From: Pseudobutyrivibrio sp. OR37
GTDB taxonomy: Bacteria > Bacillota > Clostridia > Lachnospirales > Lachnospiraceae
DNA: 64,000 nt
Direction of reading: 5' to 3'
Assembly: GCF_900113655.1 (NCBI RefSeq)
Contig: NZ_FOQF01000017.1
Coordinates: 1 to 64,000, forward strand
Part shown: one piece after another, positions 3,814-42,326 of the stretch
Position numbering within the stretch: the first letter of the stretch is position 1
Layout: the number at the start of each line of letters is the position of its first letter
Notes under the pieces: model-generated
What the model was told of the DNA's origin: nothing
Database searches by the model: none
Seen by the model: the letters and a program-made list of their open reading frames with translations, nothing else
Made by a program: the position numbers and the translations under genes

Positions 3814-5090
3814 TGGCTATTACCAAAGTAAAAAGTTTAAAAGGCGAAATTACAGTTCCAGGGGATAAATCTATCAGCCATCGTGGCGTTATGTTTGGTG
3901 CAATTTCCGAAGGCATAACAGAACTTACCGGATTTTTAGATGGAGCCGATTGCAGAAGTACAATTTCATGTTTTCGTGCAATGGGCATTGATATATCTCA
4001 GGAAAATGACCATGTAATAATTCATGGAAAAGGACTTCACGGTCTTAATGCTCCTACTAATATGCTAGATGTAGGTAATAGTGGAACTACAACAAGACTT
4101 ATATCAGGTATTTTGTCTGGTCAGCCTTTTGTAAGCGCACTAAATGGTGATGCATCCATCCAAAAAAGGCCAATGGGTCGAATCATAACACCTCTTTCTG
4201 AAATGGGAGCTTATATACGCTCTCTTAAGGATAATGGTTGCGCGCCTCTTGAAATGGGTGGAAAGCCTTTAAAAGCCATTCACTACAACTCTCCTGTTGC
4301 ATCAGCTCAGGTAAAGTCTTGTGTACTTTTAGCAGGTTTGTATGCTGATGGCGTTACATCTGTATCAGAACCTGTAATTTCACGTAATCATTCCGAGCTT
4401 ATGCTTTCTGGATTTGGTGCCAAAATCAAAACTGAGGGCCTTACTGCTTCTATTGAAGGCTTTCCTAAGCTTGTTGGACAGAAAATTGATGTTCCTGGGG
4501 ATATCTCATCTGCAGCATATTTTATTGTTGCTGGATTAATCTGTCCAAATGCAGATTTATTAATCAAGAACGTAAATACGAATCCAACCAGAGCCGGTAT
4601 CATAAAAGTTGCTCAAGCTATGGGTGGCAATATTGAATTATTAAATGAAAGAATTATAGGTGGTGAACCAGTAGCTGATATACATGTAACTACAAGCAAG
4701 CTTAATGGATGTGAAATTTCTGGTGAAATCATTCCAACTCTTATTGATGAGATACCTGTAATTGCTGTTATGGCAGCTTGTGCAGATGGAACTACTATTA
4801 TTAAAGATGCTGCAGAATTAAAAGTAAAAGAAAGTGACCGCATTGCTACGGTCACTGAAAACTTAAAAGCCATGGGCTGTGATATTACTCCAACTGATGA
4901 TGGTATGATAATAAATGGAGGTAAGCTTCACAGCACTATCGTAAATACGTATATGGATCATCGCATTGCTATGGCATTTGCAATAGCTGGCCTTGTAGCA
5001 GATGGTGAAACCACATTTGACAATGAAGGCTGTTGCTGTATTTCATACCCAAACTTTTTTAATGTATTACAGCAAATTGTAAATAAGTAA
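3813..5090 (+). CDS. aroA: 3-phosphoshikimate 1-carboxyvinyltransferase (EPSP synthase)
   Basis: AroA transfers enolpyruvate from PEP to shikimate-3-phosphate, the sixth shikimate pathway step. The 425 residues match the family length. Diagnostic motifs are PGDKSISHR near the N-terminus (substrate-binding Lys), [11 protein letters not shown] (the LxxGNSGT signature, about residues 90-100) and KESDRI (about 345). Motif spelling suggests a class II-like Gram-positive enzyme; that is an inference. It overlaps tyrA by one base and ends 10 bp from the convergent ZIP gene with no obvious terminator between. Confidence 0.96.
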
Positions 5091-19098: not shown

Positions 19099-19118
19099 CT
19101 TTTCTCTCCTTTAAATCC

Positions 19119-19202
19119 GCAAGTTACGCTCTCAAGCCTAAGATATTGCCTTCGGTCACTGATGTTTCCTTCGGCAACACTTAAAGCTTGATAGCTACTT
19201 GC
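19119..19202. repeat. Structured hairpin repeat, family A copy 1
   Basis: An 84-nt imperfect palindrome. The outer stem is GCAAGT/ACTTGC. TAC on the left faces a single T on the right, followed by GCT/AGC, a small 2-nt internal loop, and CAAGC/GCTTG. An inner helix is capped by a loop containing GGTCACTGATGTTTCCTTC. The same order of elements recurs in three other copies with different stem sequences. It lies between the IMP cyclohydrolase and AICAR formyltransferase genes. Confidence 0.7.
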
Positions 19203-19230
19203 TCATCTAATAATCCAATTAAACTATTCC

Positions 19231-19950
19231 TTACGCCCTTACGTTTTTATTTATGATTCGGGTGTCGACAGTGCCGGTTGCGATGTCGATGTAACGTACG
19301 AAAAGTGAAACCTTATTATCCATATTAAGGTTTGACCAAATCATATCGGTAAACTCATCGATGTTGCCTGAAATTTCAATTGGTGTTGGCTCTCCTTCGT
19401 ATGATGGAAGTGGATTGCCATCGTTCATATAGGTGTGAATAAATCTGCCGGTACCTGGCTTTGGATTGGAATAATCAAATGTGTATCTATTACATGAATC
19501 GCTGTCGCCCATGTTGGACTTAAGAATTGACATTAAATAAGAAAACTCGCCGTTTTCGATGTGAAGTAGACCTGAAATACGAGGTGTAAAATTAGGACCG
19601 TCTGGCTCAAATTCGCGTCTGCGAAGTGTCTGCTCGAAAGTCTCTCCCTTTTGCATGTACTCATAAATAGTATCAGTCTGATCACCGTTTGTAACGATTG
19701 TGTCATTTCCTAGCACTCTGACAGGTGCATAAATGATAAGTGATGGGTCTGTAAGCTTTGATGGGTCGAATGCCTCTGTACGAATGCCCTTTCCGTCCTC
19801 TACAAAAACTCTGTTTCTTGAATTCTCAGAACGCCCCATAATAAAATAAGCAGAGACAGCCTTGGTTCCGTCTTCTGAACGGCCAATGACAATGCCTCTG
19901 CCTGGATACGTGGTCTCTGATAATTCTCTAGCTAAAGATTTTACTACCAT
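19231..19950 (-). CDS. purO: IMP cyclohydrolase, PurO type
   Basis: PurO closes FAICAR to IMP, the last purine step. It is structurally unrelated to the PurH cyclohydrolase domain and best known from archaea. The 239 residues show the family's features: TTYPGRGIVIGRSEDG near the N-terminus, AYFIMGRSENSRNRVF, and PNFTPRISGLLH in the middle. The start at 19950 has GGAGGA 7 nt upstream; a longer frame to 19980 would place the ribosome site inside the gene. The neighbouring AICAR formyltransferase lacks a cyclohydrolase half, which supports the assignment. I am confident of the family and less so of the gene name. Confidence 0.85.
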   Translation of the reverse strand: MVVKSLARELSETTYPGRGIVIGRSEDGTKAVSAYFIMGRSENSRNRVFVEDGKGIRTEAFDPSKLTDPSLIIYAPVRVLGNDTIVTNGDQTDTIYEYMQKGETFEQTLRRREFEPDGPNFTPRISGLLHIENGEFSYLMSILKSNMGDSDSCNRYTFDYSNPKPGTGRFIHTYMNDGNPLPSYEGEPTPIEISGNIDEFTDMIWSNLNMDNKVSLFVRYIDIATGTVDTRIINKNVRA

Positions 19951-19982
19951 GGGTTCCTCCTTTAATACATTTTCCGCCACAA

Positions 19983-20011
19983 ATTATAACTGAACCCACA
20001 GTCTGTGTCTA
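19983..20011 (-). promoter_or_regulatory. Probable promoter of purO-purH
   Basis: On the minus strand TAGACA (20006-20011) and TATAAT (19983-19988) are 17 nt apart, about 35 nt before the purO start. Confidence 0.6.
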
Positions 20012-20047
20012 CCCTAAAATACATCAAATAATTAAGTTATTTGGCTC

Positions 20048-20131
20048 GCTGGTTACGGTCACAAGTATAATATTTCCTCAGTCGACTAAGAATGTCTTCC
20101 TTAGGAAATATTATCCTTGTTACCTACCAGC
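20048..20131. repeat. Structured hairpin repeat, family A copy 2
   Basis: An 84-nt imperfect palindrome. The outer stem is GCTGGT/ACCAGC, then TAC opposite T, GGT/ACC, a 2-nt internal loop, CAAG/CTTG, and an inner AT-rich stem (TAATATTTCCT with its complement). The loop CAGTCGACTAAGAATGTCTT follows. It precedes purO on the minus strand and is followed at once by copy 3. Confidence 0.75.
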
Positions 20132-20153
20132 TATTTTCAACTTTTTTTAGCTC

Positions 20154-20234
20154 GCTTGTTACGCTAACAATAAAAAGTATTACTCCGTCGCGAGATTGCT
20201 CCTTGAGTAATACTTTTCATTGTTAGCTACAAGC
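20154..20234. repeat. Structured hairpin repeat, family A copy 3
   Basis: An 81-nt palindrome. The outer stem is GCTTGT/ACAAGC, then TAC opposite T, GCTAACAAT/ATTGTTAGC, an A opposite C, and an inner stem AAAAGTATTACTC/GAGTAATACTTTT. The loop is CGTCGCGAGATTGCTCCTT. Copy 2 and copy 3 are tandem (106-bp pitch) and share their flanks: CTCGCT on the left and AGCTATTT on the right. It lies 35 bp beyond the stop of the FliD-like gene and may also end its transcript. Confidence 0.75.
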
Positions 20235-20269
20235 TATTTATACTTTCTTTTATGAATCCCATATTAGGG

Positions 20270-21941: not shown

Positions 21942-22033
21942 ACCCTCATCCGGCTCTTCGAGCCACCTTGTCTCGCCTCCCGGCTCGGTCGTTGCTAAAC
22001 AGGCTCCACTGGAGCCTAGCAACCCCAGAGGGG
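21942..22033. repeat. REP-like palindromic intergenic element (copy B2, extended)
   Basis: This copy shares the CCCTCATC start and the CCCC...GGGGGAAGGC end with the element at 12411-12464. It has a hairpin GGCTC-TTC-GAGCC (21952-21964) and an extra nested hairpin in the middle (GTTGCTA...TAGCAAC around GGCTCCACTGGAGCC). The extra piece looks like an insertion into the basic element. It lies inside the hisH-hisF gap. Confidence 0.65.
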
Positions 22034-22038
22034 GAAGG

Positions 22039-22644
22039 CTATTGGGTAGCAAAGTTTTTAAGAATTTTTAATCCTACATTAGAGGATTTTTCTGGATGGA
22101 ACTGACAGGCAAATATGTTACCCTTTTCTACAGAGGCATGGATGTGACAGCCATATTCTGTGGTGGCGGTAACAATGGATGAATCTTTAGCCTGTAGATA
22201 ATATGAATGTACAAAATAAACAAAAGCCCCCTCATCTATTCCATTAAATAAGTGGCCTTCATTAGGAAAATCTAAAGAGTTCCAACCAATATGAGGAACC
22301 TTGATTCCTTCACTGTCAGGAATCCTCTTTACAATTCCGTCAAGAACATGTAAGCCCTCTACACCAGGTGATTCCTCGGATGATTCAAACAAAAGCTGTA
22401 AGCCTAAACATATTCCAAGAAACGGCTTGCCTGTGACAACAAATTCATGAATTGCCTTATCAAGCTCATATTTCTTAAGATTTTCCATGGCGGCAGCAAA
22501 AGAGCCGACTCCTGGTAATACCAAACGGTCGGCTTTTTTAATAACACTAAAATCCCTGGTGAGGACAGTTTCCTCACCAAGGATTTTGAATGCTTTTTCT
22601 ACACTTTTAATATTTCCTGCATCGTAATCAAGTATCGCTATCAT
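22039..22644 (-). CDS. hisH: Imidazole glycerol phosphate synthase glutaminase subunit
   Basis: HisH is the class I glutamine amidotransferase that supplies ammonia to HisF. The 201 residues have ILDYDAGNIKSV at the N-terminus, LPGVGSF, the nucleophile elbow GICLGLQLLFE (Cys near 79) and the catalytic His/Glu in CQFHPEKSS. The start overlaps the stop of the upstream acidic membrane protein by 4 nt (ATGA), so it depends on that gene's transcript, an odd arrangement for a histidine gene. Confidence 0.96.
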   Translation of the reverse strand: MIAILDYDAGNIKSVEKAFKILGEETVLTRDFSVIKKADRLVLPGVGSFAAAMENLKKYELDKAIHEFVVTGKPFLGICLGLQLLFESSEESPGVEGLHVLDGIVKRIPDSEGIKVPHIGWNSLDFPNEGHLFNGIDEGAFVYFVHSYYLQAKDSSIVTATTEYGCHIHASVEKGNIFACQFHPEKSSNVGLKILKNFATQ

Positions 22645-38757: not shown

Positions 38758-39846
38758 ATGATTAAACATAAAGACCATTTTCACGGAAGTGATTTAGAGA
38801 AAATCGAAAAGATTTATGGAATAAAAAAAGAGGACATTATTAGCTTCTCTGCTAATGTTAATCCACTTGGGATTTCTTCAAAGCTGAGGGATGGCATCAA
38901 GGATCATATTGATTGCATCACCACATACCCAGATAGAGAATACTCTGCGCTTCGTCAATGCATCGCTATTTACTGTGGTTGCGAATCCGAAAACGTAATC
39001 GTTGGAAACGGTTCAACAGAGCTCATTTCTCTATTCGTAAAAATCGAAAATCCTAAAAAGGCCCTTATCCTTGGACCTACTTATTCAGAATACGAAAGAG
39101 AAATTTCATTGGTTGGTGGCAAAACAATCTACTACCCACTCAAGGAAGAAAACTCATTTTTACTTGATACCAATGATTTTGTTAGCAAATTATCAGAAGA
39201 CATTGATATGGTTATCATTTGCAATCCAAACAATCCTACAGGAACAGCCATCAATACATCAGATATGCGTAAGATTCTTGATGCCTGCATGGCCTTCCAT
39301 ATATTCGTTATGGTAGATGAAACCTATGTAGAATTTGCCGAGGATGTTTCAAAGATTTCTGCTGTAGGTCTTACAAGAACCTACAACAATATTGCCATTT
39401 TACGTGGCACCTCAAAATTCTTTGCTGCCCCTGGCCTTCGCTTAGGCTATGCCATCTGTTCCAACGAGGATTTGATTTCAGAAATCAACAAGCGTAAGGA
39501 CCCATGGACTATCAACTCCATTGCTGTAGTTGCCGGCACATTAATGTTTACAGATGAGGAATACATTAATAAAACCAGAAAGCTTATTTCATCAGAGCGT
39601 GACCGCCTGTATAAAATATTTGAAGAAAGCTCTCGCTTTAAACCATATAAGCCAGAAGGCAACTTTATGCTGCTGAAGATATTAGAGGATGGCTTAACCA
39701 GTGGCGAACTATTTGACCGATGCATCAAAAAAGGACTCATGATTCGCGATTGTTCTACCTTCCCTTATCTTGGCGAAAACTACATCCGATTCTGCTTCAT
39801 GAATCCATCCGATAACGACAAACTTGTTGAGACATTATTGCAATAA
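38758..39846 (+). CDS. PLP-dependent aminotransferase, CobD/HisC-like
   Basis: This is a 362-residue fold-type I PLP enzyme. The N-terminus HGSDLEKIEKIYGIKKEDIISFSANVNPLG is the CobD (threonine-phosphate decarboxylase) style opening. Lys220 in RGTSKFFAAPGLRLGYAI is the expected PLP lysine, and CNPNNPTGT and VDETYVEF are the conserved core motifs. CobD makes aminopropanol phosphate for cobalamin; HisC is histidinol-phosphate aminotransferase. No cobalamin genes are nearby, and hisF/hisH are 17 kb away, so substrate is open. The ATG at 38758 follows GAGG by 8 nt. It is convergent with the GH25 gene and ends in a shared hairpin. Confidence 0.85.
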   Translation: MIKHKDHFHGSDLEKIEKIYGIKKEDIISFSANVNPLGISSKLRDGIKDHIDCITTYPDREYSALRQCIAIYCGCESENVIVGNGSTELISLFVKIENPKKALILGPTYSEYEREISLVGGKTIYYPLKEENSFLLDTNDFVSKLSEDIDMVIICNPNNPTGTAINTSDMRKILDACMAFHIFVMVDETYVEFAEDVSKISAVGLTRTYNNIAILRGTSKFFAAPGLRLGYAICSNEDLISEINKRKDPWTINSIAVVAGTLMFTDEEYINKTRKLISSERDRLYKIFEESSRFKPYKPEGNFMLLKILEDGLTSGELFDRCIKKGLMIRDCSTFPYLGENYIRFCFMNPSDNDKLVETLLQ

Positions 39847-39949
39847 AAAACGCCCCATTACGGTAACAATCATAATAATTCTACGCTCAGCATAGAAAGC
39901 TTTGCTTAAGAATTATTATAGATTGTTACCTATGGGGTGTTTTTTATTG
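39841..39949. repeat. Structured hairpin repeat, family A copy 4, acting as bidirectional terminator
   Basis: A 109-nt palindrome fills the whole gap between two convergent genes and supplies both stop codons. The outer arms (39841-39858 with 39932-39949) pair over 18 bp and contain A6/T6 runs, so each strand ends in a U-tract. Inside come TAC opposite a single T, GGTAACAATC/GATTGTTACC, and a TAATAATTCT/AGAATTATTA inner stem. The loop contains CGCTCAGCATAGAAAGCTTTG. The TAC/T internal loop and GGTAACAA arm match copies 2 and 3. Confidence 0.75.
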
Positions 39950-41595: not shown

Positions 41596-42246
41596 ATGAA
41601 ATACGACACAATTCTATTTGATTTAGACGGTACCCTGCTTTACACACTAGAAGACTTAACAGATTCTATCAACTATATGTTAGAAAAATATGGGTTTGAG
41701 ACTCATTCAATAGATGACGTAAGAAGGTTTGTTGGAAATGGTTTAAGAATGCTTGTAGTTCGTGCCCTTCCTATGGGTGAAAACTACGAACACTTTGAAG
41801 AATTCTTTCAGGAGTTCGTTGAATACTACAACACCCACAATCTTATCAAAACAAAGCCTTATGATGGCATAATGGAAACCACAAACGAGCTTGCGCGAAT
41901 AGGTGTAAAAATGGCCATCGTAACTAATAAAGGGCAAACAGCCAGCGAGTCCTTACTAGAGGATTTCTTTAAGCCTAATATTAATATTGTAATTGGAGAT
42001 GACGGTAAGCATCCTAGAAAGCCTGATCCTGCTCCTATCGAGATGGCACTATCTGCTCTAGGTGTTACAGATAAATCCAAGGTCCTTTATGTAGGTGATT
42101 CTGAAGTAGATGCTGCTGTAGGCGAAAACTCTGGTCTGGATTATGTGCTTTGCACTTACGGCTTCCGCGATATGGATGTGCTTTCAAAATTCAATCCTGT
42201 AGCCTACATTGATGACATTCGCAAATTATTAAATATTGTATATTAA
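41596..42246 (+). CDS. HAD-superfamily phosphatase, phosphoglycolate-phosphatase-like
   Basis: This is a 216-residue HAD subclass IA hydrolase. Motif I is FDLDGTLLYTLEDL (nucleophile and acid Asp), motif II is AIVTNKG, motif III is the Lys in HPRKPDPAP, and motif IV is VLYVGDSEVDAAVGENSG. The cap is all helical (about 15-85). This is the Gph/PGPase pattern, but HAD enzymes are promiscuous and the substrate is uncertain. AAAGGATG precedes the ATG. It is convergent with the D,D-carboxypeptidase gene. Confidence 0.87.
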   Translation: MKYDTILFDLDGTLLYTLEDLTDSINYMLEKYGFETHSIDDVRRFVGNGLRMLVVRALPMGENYEHFEEFFQEFVEYYNTHNLIKTKPYDGIMETTNELARIGVKMAIVTNKGQTASESLLEDFFKPNINIVIGDDGKHPRKPDPAPIEMALSALGVTDKSKVLYVGDSEVDAAVGENSGLDYVLCTYGFRDMDVLSKFNPVAYIDDIRKLLNIVY

Positions 42247-42326
42247 AATATATCTAGCACCTAACAAGCTATAATAATTCTTAAGAAAAGAATTTATTAT
42301 GCTTGTTAGGGTGACTAGATATTTTT
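42247..42326. terminator. Long bidirectional terminator hairpin
   Basis: A hairpin of about 80 nt lies between two convergent genes. CTAG and ACCTAACAAGC on the left pair with GCTTGTTAGGGT and CTAG on the right, with small asymmetric loops, an inner AT-rich stem and an AAGA-type loop. T-rich runs follow on both strands. It lacks the TAC/T loop of family A, though its TAACAAGC arm recalls it. Confidence 0.7.

Follow-up and report, generated by a model that had tools for sequence, protein, structure and literature searches.

A genus-wide family of palindromes with a fixed asymmetric bulge, probably mobile and REP-like, between the genes of Pseudobutyrivibrio

GTAG repeats of the REP/REPIN kind were reported in Proteobacteria, Cyanobacteria, Chloroflexi and PVC phyla by a 2013 survey (PMC3733652), the main text of which contains none of the words 'Clostridi', 'Butyrivibrio' or 'Lachnospir' (PMC3733652). 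A family of hairpins in Pseudobutyrivibrio is like these repeats: its members are short intergenic palindromes, present in many copies, that carry GTAG at one end, have mismatches in the stem and lie between or downstream of genes. It differs from them in having a core of ~72-80 nt rather than 20-40 nt, a TAC/T bulge that is fixed, freely changing arms and no linked Y1 transposase. The family resembles REP elements in its working and falls outside them in size and in transposase. Other described repeats, namely bcr1, Efa-1, Sta-1, RUP, BOX and ERIC, are ~60-170 nt long and occur in tens to hundreds of copies (PMC2267715); they share with the present family its size, intergenic position, copy number and predicted stem-loops, but compared by description they are defined by sequence models, whereas the elements here are defined by pairing and a few fixed bases. 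ISPpu9 sits in palindromic repeats (PMC8450116), and insertion sequences of that type are complete elements with transposase genes, whereas the insert here is the hairpin only. Template switching at quasipalindromes has been described as a source of instantaneous compensatory changes (PMC8794818) and as a process that homogenises arms and inverts the spacer (PMC8604942). The Watson-Crick double changes and loop inversion that it predicts are both seen here; it is a mutation process, however, and alone it cannot explain the copy number or the preserved asymmetric bulge.

The window, i.e., the whole 64,000-nucleotide stretch of Pseudobutyrivibrio sp. OR37 DNA that was analysed, had been described in an initial annotation as containing four hairpins of one design, and all four were found at the coordinates claimed (19119-19202, 20048-20131, 20154-20234 and 39841-39949), with folding energies 5 to 11 s.d. 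below those of dinucleotide shuffles on either strand. The joint pattern TTACGSTNNCAA...TTGNNASCTA matched 4 times in the window versus 0 times in 100 shuffles, and a stricter pattern matched 20 times in the whole genome while the reversed control pattern gave 0 matches. A covariance model was made from an alignment of 21 copies, the consensus fold of which has 25 pairs, 19 of them with a both-sided change in at least one sequence. The annotation had suggested that such a model be used to look for further copies in this genome; at E<=1 it returned 84 rows, comprising 59 distinct places and 25 antisense duplicates. None of the three outcomes that the annotation had named as speaking against its proposal (no further copies, no significant covariation, unrelated terminators matching by chance) occurred, as the copies are many, the covariation is strong and the family is one. 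The hairpins are real and belong to one family of short palindromes, probably mobile, that occupies intergenic positions and likely terminators.

The model placed five copies within the window, where seven neighbouring genes, all of those given names in this study, could also be labelled. Copy 1 (19117..19204, transcribed strand minus, E 1.1e-13) is flanked by the start of an AICARFT/IMPCHase-like gene (19098, minus) and the end of an IMP cyclohydrolase-like gene (19231, minus); its outer helix pairs 19119-19124 with 19197-19202, its TAC (19125-19127) stands opposite T 19196, and GCT pairs with AGC (19128-19130 / 19193-19195). Copy 2 (20046..20133, transcribed strand minus, E 3.0e-15) lies upstream of the IMP cyclohydrolase-like gene (start 19980, minus), and adjoining it is copy 3 (20152..20236, transcribed strand minus, E 2.3e-14), which follows a FliD-like gene (end 20270, minus). 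Copy 4 (39851..39939, no strand assigned, E 4.8e-14) forms the inner part of a two-way terminator-like hairpin, A-rich on the left and T-rich on the right, enclosed by convergent genes ending at 39846 and 39944. A fifth copy, absent from the initial annotation, is short and weak (42251..42321, no strand assigned, E 1.7e-7); the terminator-like hairpin that contains it is flanked by convergent genes with ends at 42246 and 42325, and in relatives G008 and G023 the hairpin at this site is plain, its outer stem being the same. Two late purine synthesis genes, AICARFT/IMPCHase-like and IMP cyclohydrolase-like, are thus adjacent in the window, with an element upstream of each (19117-19204 and 20046-20133).

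Read on the strand used by the annotation, the outer helix is variable and usually ends GT/AC (pattern NNNNGT...ACNNNN). Inward of it come TAC opposite a single T, usually a G..C pair, two variable pairs and frequently a one-by-one mismatch, then CAA/TTG, which is invariant or nearly so, and then a longer variable helix; the apical loop holds a small covarying helix (GAC/GTC, GGC/GCC, AGC/GCT and others) and a loop of ~5-7 nt. The fixed parts of the core are the TAC/T bulge, CAA/TTG and GTAG at one end, and the arms vary. The GTTAC...CTAC stretch measured 72-80 nt in 20 exact pattern matches, and model places, in which the 6 nt of outer stem on each side are counted, measured 83-93 nt save for one of 71 nt, so that the unit is a hairpin core of ~72-80 nt (GTAG ... 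GTAAC on the transcribed strand) or ~84-92 nt with its outer stem. CTAC (GTAG on the other strand) stood where expected, at the end of the core and inside the outer stem, in 46 of the 59 copies of this genome and 64 of 71 copies from named records. Flanking arms extend many copies (CTAGTC..TCGC on the left, GCTATTTATA or CTCATCTAAA on the right), and over 130 copies no flank column exceeded 60% for one base. The fixed bulge of the annotation was upheld, with TAC in 70 and T in all 71 of the aligned copies from named records, a constancy partly built in because the search model was trained on TTAC-bearing copies. Its GST/ASC triplet is not fixed, the weaker copies having other, mostly paired triplets, and its apical-loop GTCRC is present in copies 1 and 3 while copy 2 reads GTCGA.

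Matches to the model were found in 24 of 25 Pseudobutyrivibrio genomes (from 1 to at least 108 rows each, antisense rows included) and in 0 of 16 genomes of other genera. In an order-wide sample, to which stricter filters were applied and in which 15 candidates per genome were scored, 8 of 295 genomes matched, all of them Pseudobutyrivibrio (1 of 129 genera), and 287 gave no match, 267 of them as counted in the summary tally. A loose pattern fitted at least 114 stretches in genome contigs; among the stretches listed, all 57 loci of Pseudobutyrivibrio or Butyrivibrio fibrisolvens 16/4 had a model match at E<=0.001. Spread outside the genus was considered and rejected, as 1 of the 57 stretches from other organisms had a match, a weak one (E 0.017) that we took to be chance. 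In viral sequences 110 stretches fitted the loose pattern; these are pattern fits only, carrying no model score, and were not used. As far as searched, then, sequence comparison indicates a family confined to Pseudobutyrivibrio. The comparison with Rfam that the annotation had suggested gave no family matching the elements: release 15 detected only tmRNA in the window, and for ten element loci at E<=1 there were five rows, of which only two tRNAs passed the gathering threshold, while a microRNA match below threshold overlapped copy 3. In the part of the literature surveyed, we found no description of a palindromic repeat in Pseudobutyrivibrio or the wider group.

Repeats of other kinds were also noticed. 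A second dispersed repeat of ~100 nt, G/C-rich and with dozens of 84-96% matches in genomes of the genus, occupies 21942-22043 of the window, between genes that, from their translations, we take to be hisF-like and hisH-like; a repeat resembling it fills the element slot at C24:70978 in G041 and G044. Locus L358 carries at 4819-4866 a ~48-nt repeat of similar type with many 87-100% matches in relatives. To the right of the element at C33:111110, in L359, is a further repeat (GGCGAGCGCGAGGAAGAGGGCC..., query ~511-644) with dozens of matches in five relatives, and four loci (L417, L418, L387 and L457) contain long palindromic inserts of ~300-660 nt that share AAAGCAGGTTTTG ... AAAACCTGCTTT and occupy terminator or spacer sites in G018, G014, G021 and G006.

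Neighbour orientation was taken from a simple gene caller for 130 copies (59 from this genome and 71 from named records). Relative to the strand read by the initial annotation, both neighbours ran opposite in 84 cases and along in 15 (p 8e-13, computed on copies that are not independent), while 22 pairs were convergent, 2 divergent and 7 could not be assigned; the annotation had therefore read the strand opposite to most transcription. The spacers of the window, obtained with the same kind of caller, comprised 44 tandem, 6 convergent and 6 divergent. Copies often lie 10-35 nt upstream of a start codon: 48 of the 71 named copies have a left neighbour whose start faces the element, and 26 of these 48 starts are 10-32 nt from the model place. 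The 10 convergent copies of this genome average 6.4 A on the left and 5.7 T on the right per 10 nt, tails like those of two-way terminators, and by inspection many of these 10, and not most of the tandem copies, have a GC-rich hairpin followed by a T run. The copies in tandem spacers make up 41 of the 59 in this genome, and their left A content is low (2.17 of 10).

Covariation was measured in two alignments, one of named records, in which 71 of 90 matches were kept (E cut 1.7e-8, with antisense rows and three weak places removed), and one of 58 places in this genome plus one antisense row, in which the weakest place (C19:73129) was absent and from which the antisense row was removed for wobble counts. 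For the 71 named copies (68 distinct), standard pairs filled 93.5% of cells versus 70.0% when shuffled, both-sided changes occurred in 22 of 25 pairs, and the covariation score was 0.572 as opposed to 0.145 for shuffles (0 of 500 reaching it) and 0.054-0.089 with one side slid, which bears out the covarying stems that the annotation had seen; the own-genome set scored 0.627 versus 0.149. Shuffle tests of this kind overstate significance for related sequences, and the margin here is large. The annotation's further step, from compensating changes to selection on structure, does not hold in the form given: 2873 of 3125 pair cells (all helices, both copy sets) are Watson-Crick and few are G-U. Under RNA selection alone wobble intermediates are expected to be frequent, yet wobble accounted for <2% of pair cells on either strand. 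With all helices counted there were 44 G-T cells on the annotation's strand and 56 A-C cells, which are G-U on the other strand (p 0.27). Without helix 3, which supplies 3 of the 25 pairs, is 69-73% paired and aligns poorly, 2640 of 2758 cells were Watson-Crick and wobble was 49 on the transcribed strand versus 17 (p 1e-4), a bias that we do not rely on because it is not significant once helix 3 is included. As a control, four tRNAs had 5 G-U in 84 pairs, too few to lean on.

The same scarcity of intermediates was seen at a single site upstream of the purine gene (AICARFT/IMPCHase-like), where pairwise comparison of 14 copies from different genomes (13 distinct, with the nested copy L377 and helix 3 excluded and the pairs not independent) gave 475 differences that were both-sided and Watson-Crick, 73 that were one-sided and 39 that were both-sided without being Watson-Crick in both. 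Because wobble and one-sided states are scarce and both-sided changes plentiful, copying of arms at the DNA level is the likelier main cause. The Watson-Crick pattern fits DNA-level homogenisation of the arms at least as well as it fits RNA selection, and, judged from these comparisons, the arms probably keep matching mainly by such copying and not by selection on an RNA fold. The bulge has not been homogenised away in nearly all of the copies found by a search model that favours bulged copies, so something probably needs it.

Orthologous sites are polymorphic for presence and absence of the element, as is expected of MITEs. At C24:70978, relative G023 lacks the element between flanks that are 99.5% and 96.4% identical. 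The slot holds a copy that is clearly different in G018 and G006, and a repeat of another family in G041 and G044; every one of these occupants is bounded by the same ribosome-binding-site-like CTCCT on one side and by the upstream stop region on the other. At C24:73488 the element is present in G008 and absent from G023, G041, G018 and G044. The purine-gene site was resolved in 28 of 29 genomes (all save G001), with 15 filled, each having a model match, 12 empty, which keep 7-26 nt between anchors, and 1 apparent remnant (G017). Such filled and empty sites allow both gain and loss. Four copies (L130, L137 and, in this genome, C52:32696 and C23:11692) are nested inside others with the host's proximal arms intact. 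Among pairs of copies in this genome, C33:111110 and C77:3524 are 95.0% identical over 80 nt with identity stopping at the core, and for C42:34273 and C75:14640 the identity is 96.4% across 84 nt and stops within the outer stem; in both pairs the palindromic flanks differ, each copy having its own. The two copies of the closest pair, C24:73488 and C24:76906, lie 3.4 kb apart and are 97.8% identical, a likeness that covers the entire place and a further 4 nt to the left; in other pairs, which are below 90%, it reaches further. Movement of sequence best explains the nesting and the close pairs with core-limited identity.

Losses and rearrangements were also seen. Precise loss leaving the scar GTTAC|CTAC was found in G041 (copy 2 site), G023 (C75:14640) and G008 (C75:44194); in G041 the core of copy 2 was lost between GTTAC repeats and copy 3 is absent too, and in G008 the order of copies 2 and 3 is swapped. 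Inversion in place was found at 39851 (G008, G023, G006 and G041) and at C75:44194 (G006). At C77:3524, G008 and G023 share a collapsed core and differ in their outer stems, which means that outer stems can change without the core moving. The scars and inversions are the behaviour of unstable palindromes. Inspection of junctions showed no clean target-site duplication, and none could be fixed. Insertion of a core into a plain terminator loop was not accepted as proven: the only case in which the stem is the same (42251) may be an element that has collapsed, and the plain terminator-like hairpins found in G041 and G018 at C75:44194 differ in stem.

Of the three options offered by the initial annotation (an RNA element, a mobile palindrome with a dedicated mobiliser or a protein-binding cruciform), the mobile palindrome is best supported, and its dedicated mobiliser was not found in searches for Y1_Tnp and for lone half-elements. 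Y1 (RAYT) transposases are the known mobilisers of REP elements. A search for Y1_Tnp gave no match in this genome; the domain is present in 10 of 29 genomes of the genus and absent from 19, without visible relation to element copy number, and the Y1_Tnp-free genomes G005, G001, G012, G008, G018 and G013 have 45 to 93 model matches (antisense rows included). At 23 Y1_Tnp loci, including 5 outside the genus, no element lay within ~1.5 kb (less at contig ends). Linkage to Y1/RAYT was rejected on these two grounds, the lack of Y1_Tnp here and of elements at the Y1_Tnp loci tested. A search for lone half-elements across 883,833 bases of loci, some of which overlap, yielded 13 rows, all left halves. 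Inspected by eye as nucleotide sequence, these included copies that were nested or collapsed, contig ends and what looked like a coding match, and none was recognised as an end of a gene-carrying partner.

The reading that we consider probable is that of a REP-like, non-autonomous family of mobile palindromes belonging to Pseudobutyrivibrio. The fixed parts, i.e., the three-to-one bulge, CAA/TTG and the GTAG end, would probably be read as single-stranded DNA by a putative transposase-like enzyme, and one arm of the hairpin would be recopied from its partner during replication, by which the variable arms would stay complementary, as the few wobble and one-sided states suggest. Copies would survive where harm is small, that is, in transcribed same-direction spacers just upstream of a ribosome-binding site and inside terminator-like hairpins, and there they may mildly affect mRNA ends or decay. 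Counting against the mobile reading are the lack of any enzyme found by the Y1_Tnp searches, the want of a clean target-site duplication, the closest pair of copies, in which identity runs past the core, the one-way orientation, which could mean selection at the RNA level, and the several sites at which loss is as likely as gain. More tentatively, and with a good deal of doubt, the hairpin might favour, as insertion sites, the tips of other hairpins (terminators and copies of itself) and positions next to ribosome-binding sites, a candidate bulge-reading enzyme acting on folded single-stranded DNA and the self-recopying arms being free to drift.

Against this mobile, REP-like reading stand several rivals. 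The elements could be cis-acting RNAs, intercistronic hairpins placed before the ribosome-binding site for processing, stability or translation, with a fold that is under selection and is recognised by a protein or RNase specific to the genus. The 84-to-15 orientation in tandem gene pairs, the many copies whose left end is 10-35 nt away from a start codon, the fixed asymmetric loop, the purine-gene slot filled in 15 of 28 resolved genomes and a wobble bias to the transcribed strand (49 to 17 without helix 3, 56 to 44 with all) are what such an RNA would show; wobble below 2% on either strand, the emptiness of the same locus in many relatives, copies that are inverted, collapsed, nested or inside terminator-like hairpins, and the filling of the same slot by other repeats are not. 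As the wobble bias loses significance when all helices are counted, we rate the RNA account lower and regard it as unlikely. Ordinary intrinsic terminators or chance look-alike hairpins would suit the A-rich left and T-rich right tails of the convergent copies in this genome (n=10), but pattern and covariance-model counts far above control, the fixed bulge and the low left A content of the 41 of 59 copies in tandem spacers leave this account with very little probability, and terminators as a full explanation are refuted, since the family exists apart from them.

Two further rivals were considered. The outer R box consensus of integron attC sites is RYYYAAC/GTTRRRY. The hairpin as a cruciform to which a chromosomal or recombination protein binds, such as a tyrosine recombinase that recognises hairpins with unpaired bases in the manner of attC, would accord with structure conserved more than sequence, with fixed unpaired bases and with the inversions and precise losses, yet the outer helix here is GT...AC rather than AAC...GTT, and no cassette array was noticed in passing around the copies, so that we hold this identity to be decidedly improbable. 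A true GTAG REP, whose Y1 (RAYT-type) transposase acted in trans and has since been lost from this genome, is likewise improbable. The hairpin does carry GTAG at the end of its core in the copies counted above (46 of 59 in this genome, 64 of 71 from named records), and REPtrons can be lost by deletion (PMC3733652), but the core is ~72-80 nt, not 20-40 nt, 19 of 29 genomes of the genus have no Y1_Tnp although some are rich in copies, and 0 of 23 Y1_Tnp loci carry an element.

If the preference for hairpin tips were true, the mover would be a new structure-reading enzyme. The family also offers an example from bacteria of strong covariation, a signal usually accepted as proving RNA structure, for which arm copying at the DNA level is plausibly most of the explanation. 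For the rumen and gut bacteria to which Pseudobutyrivibrio belongs, the REP-like reading would add an abundant, genus-wide mobile palindrome.
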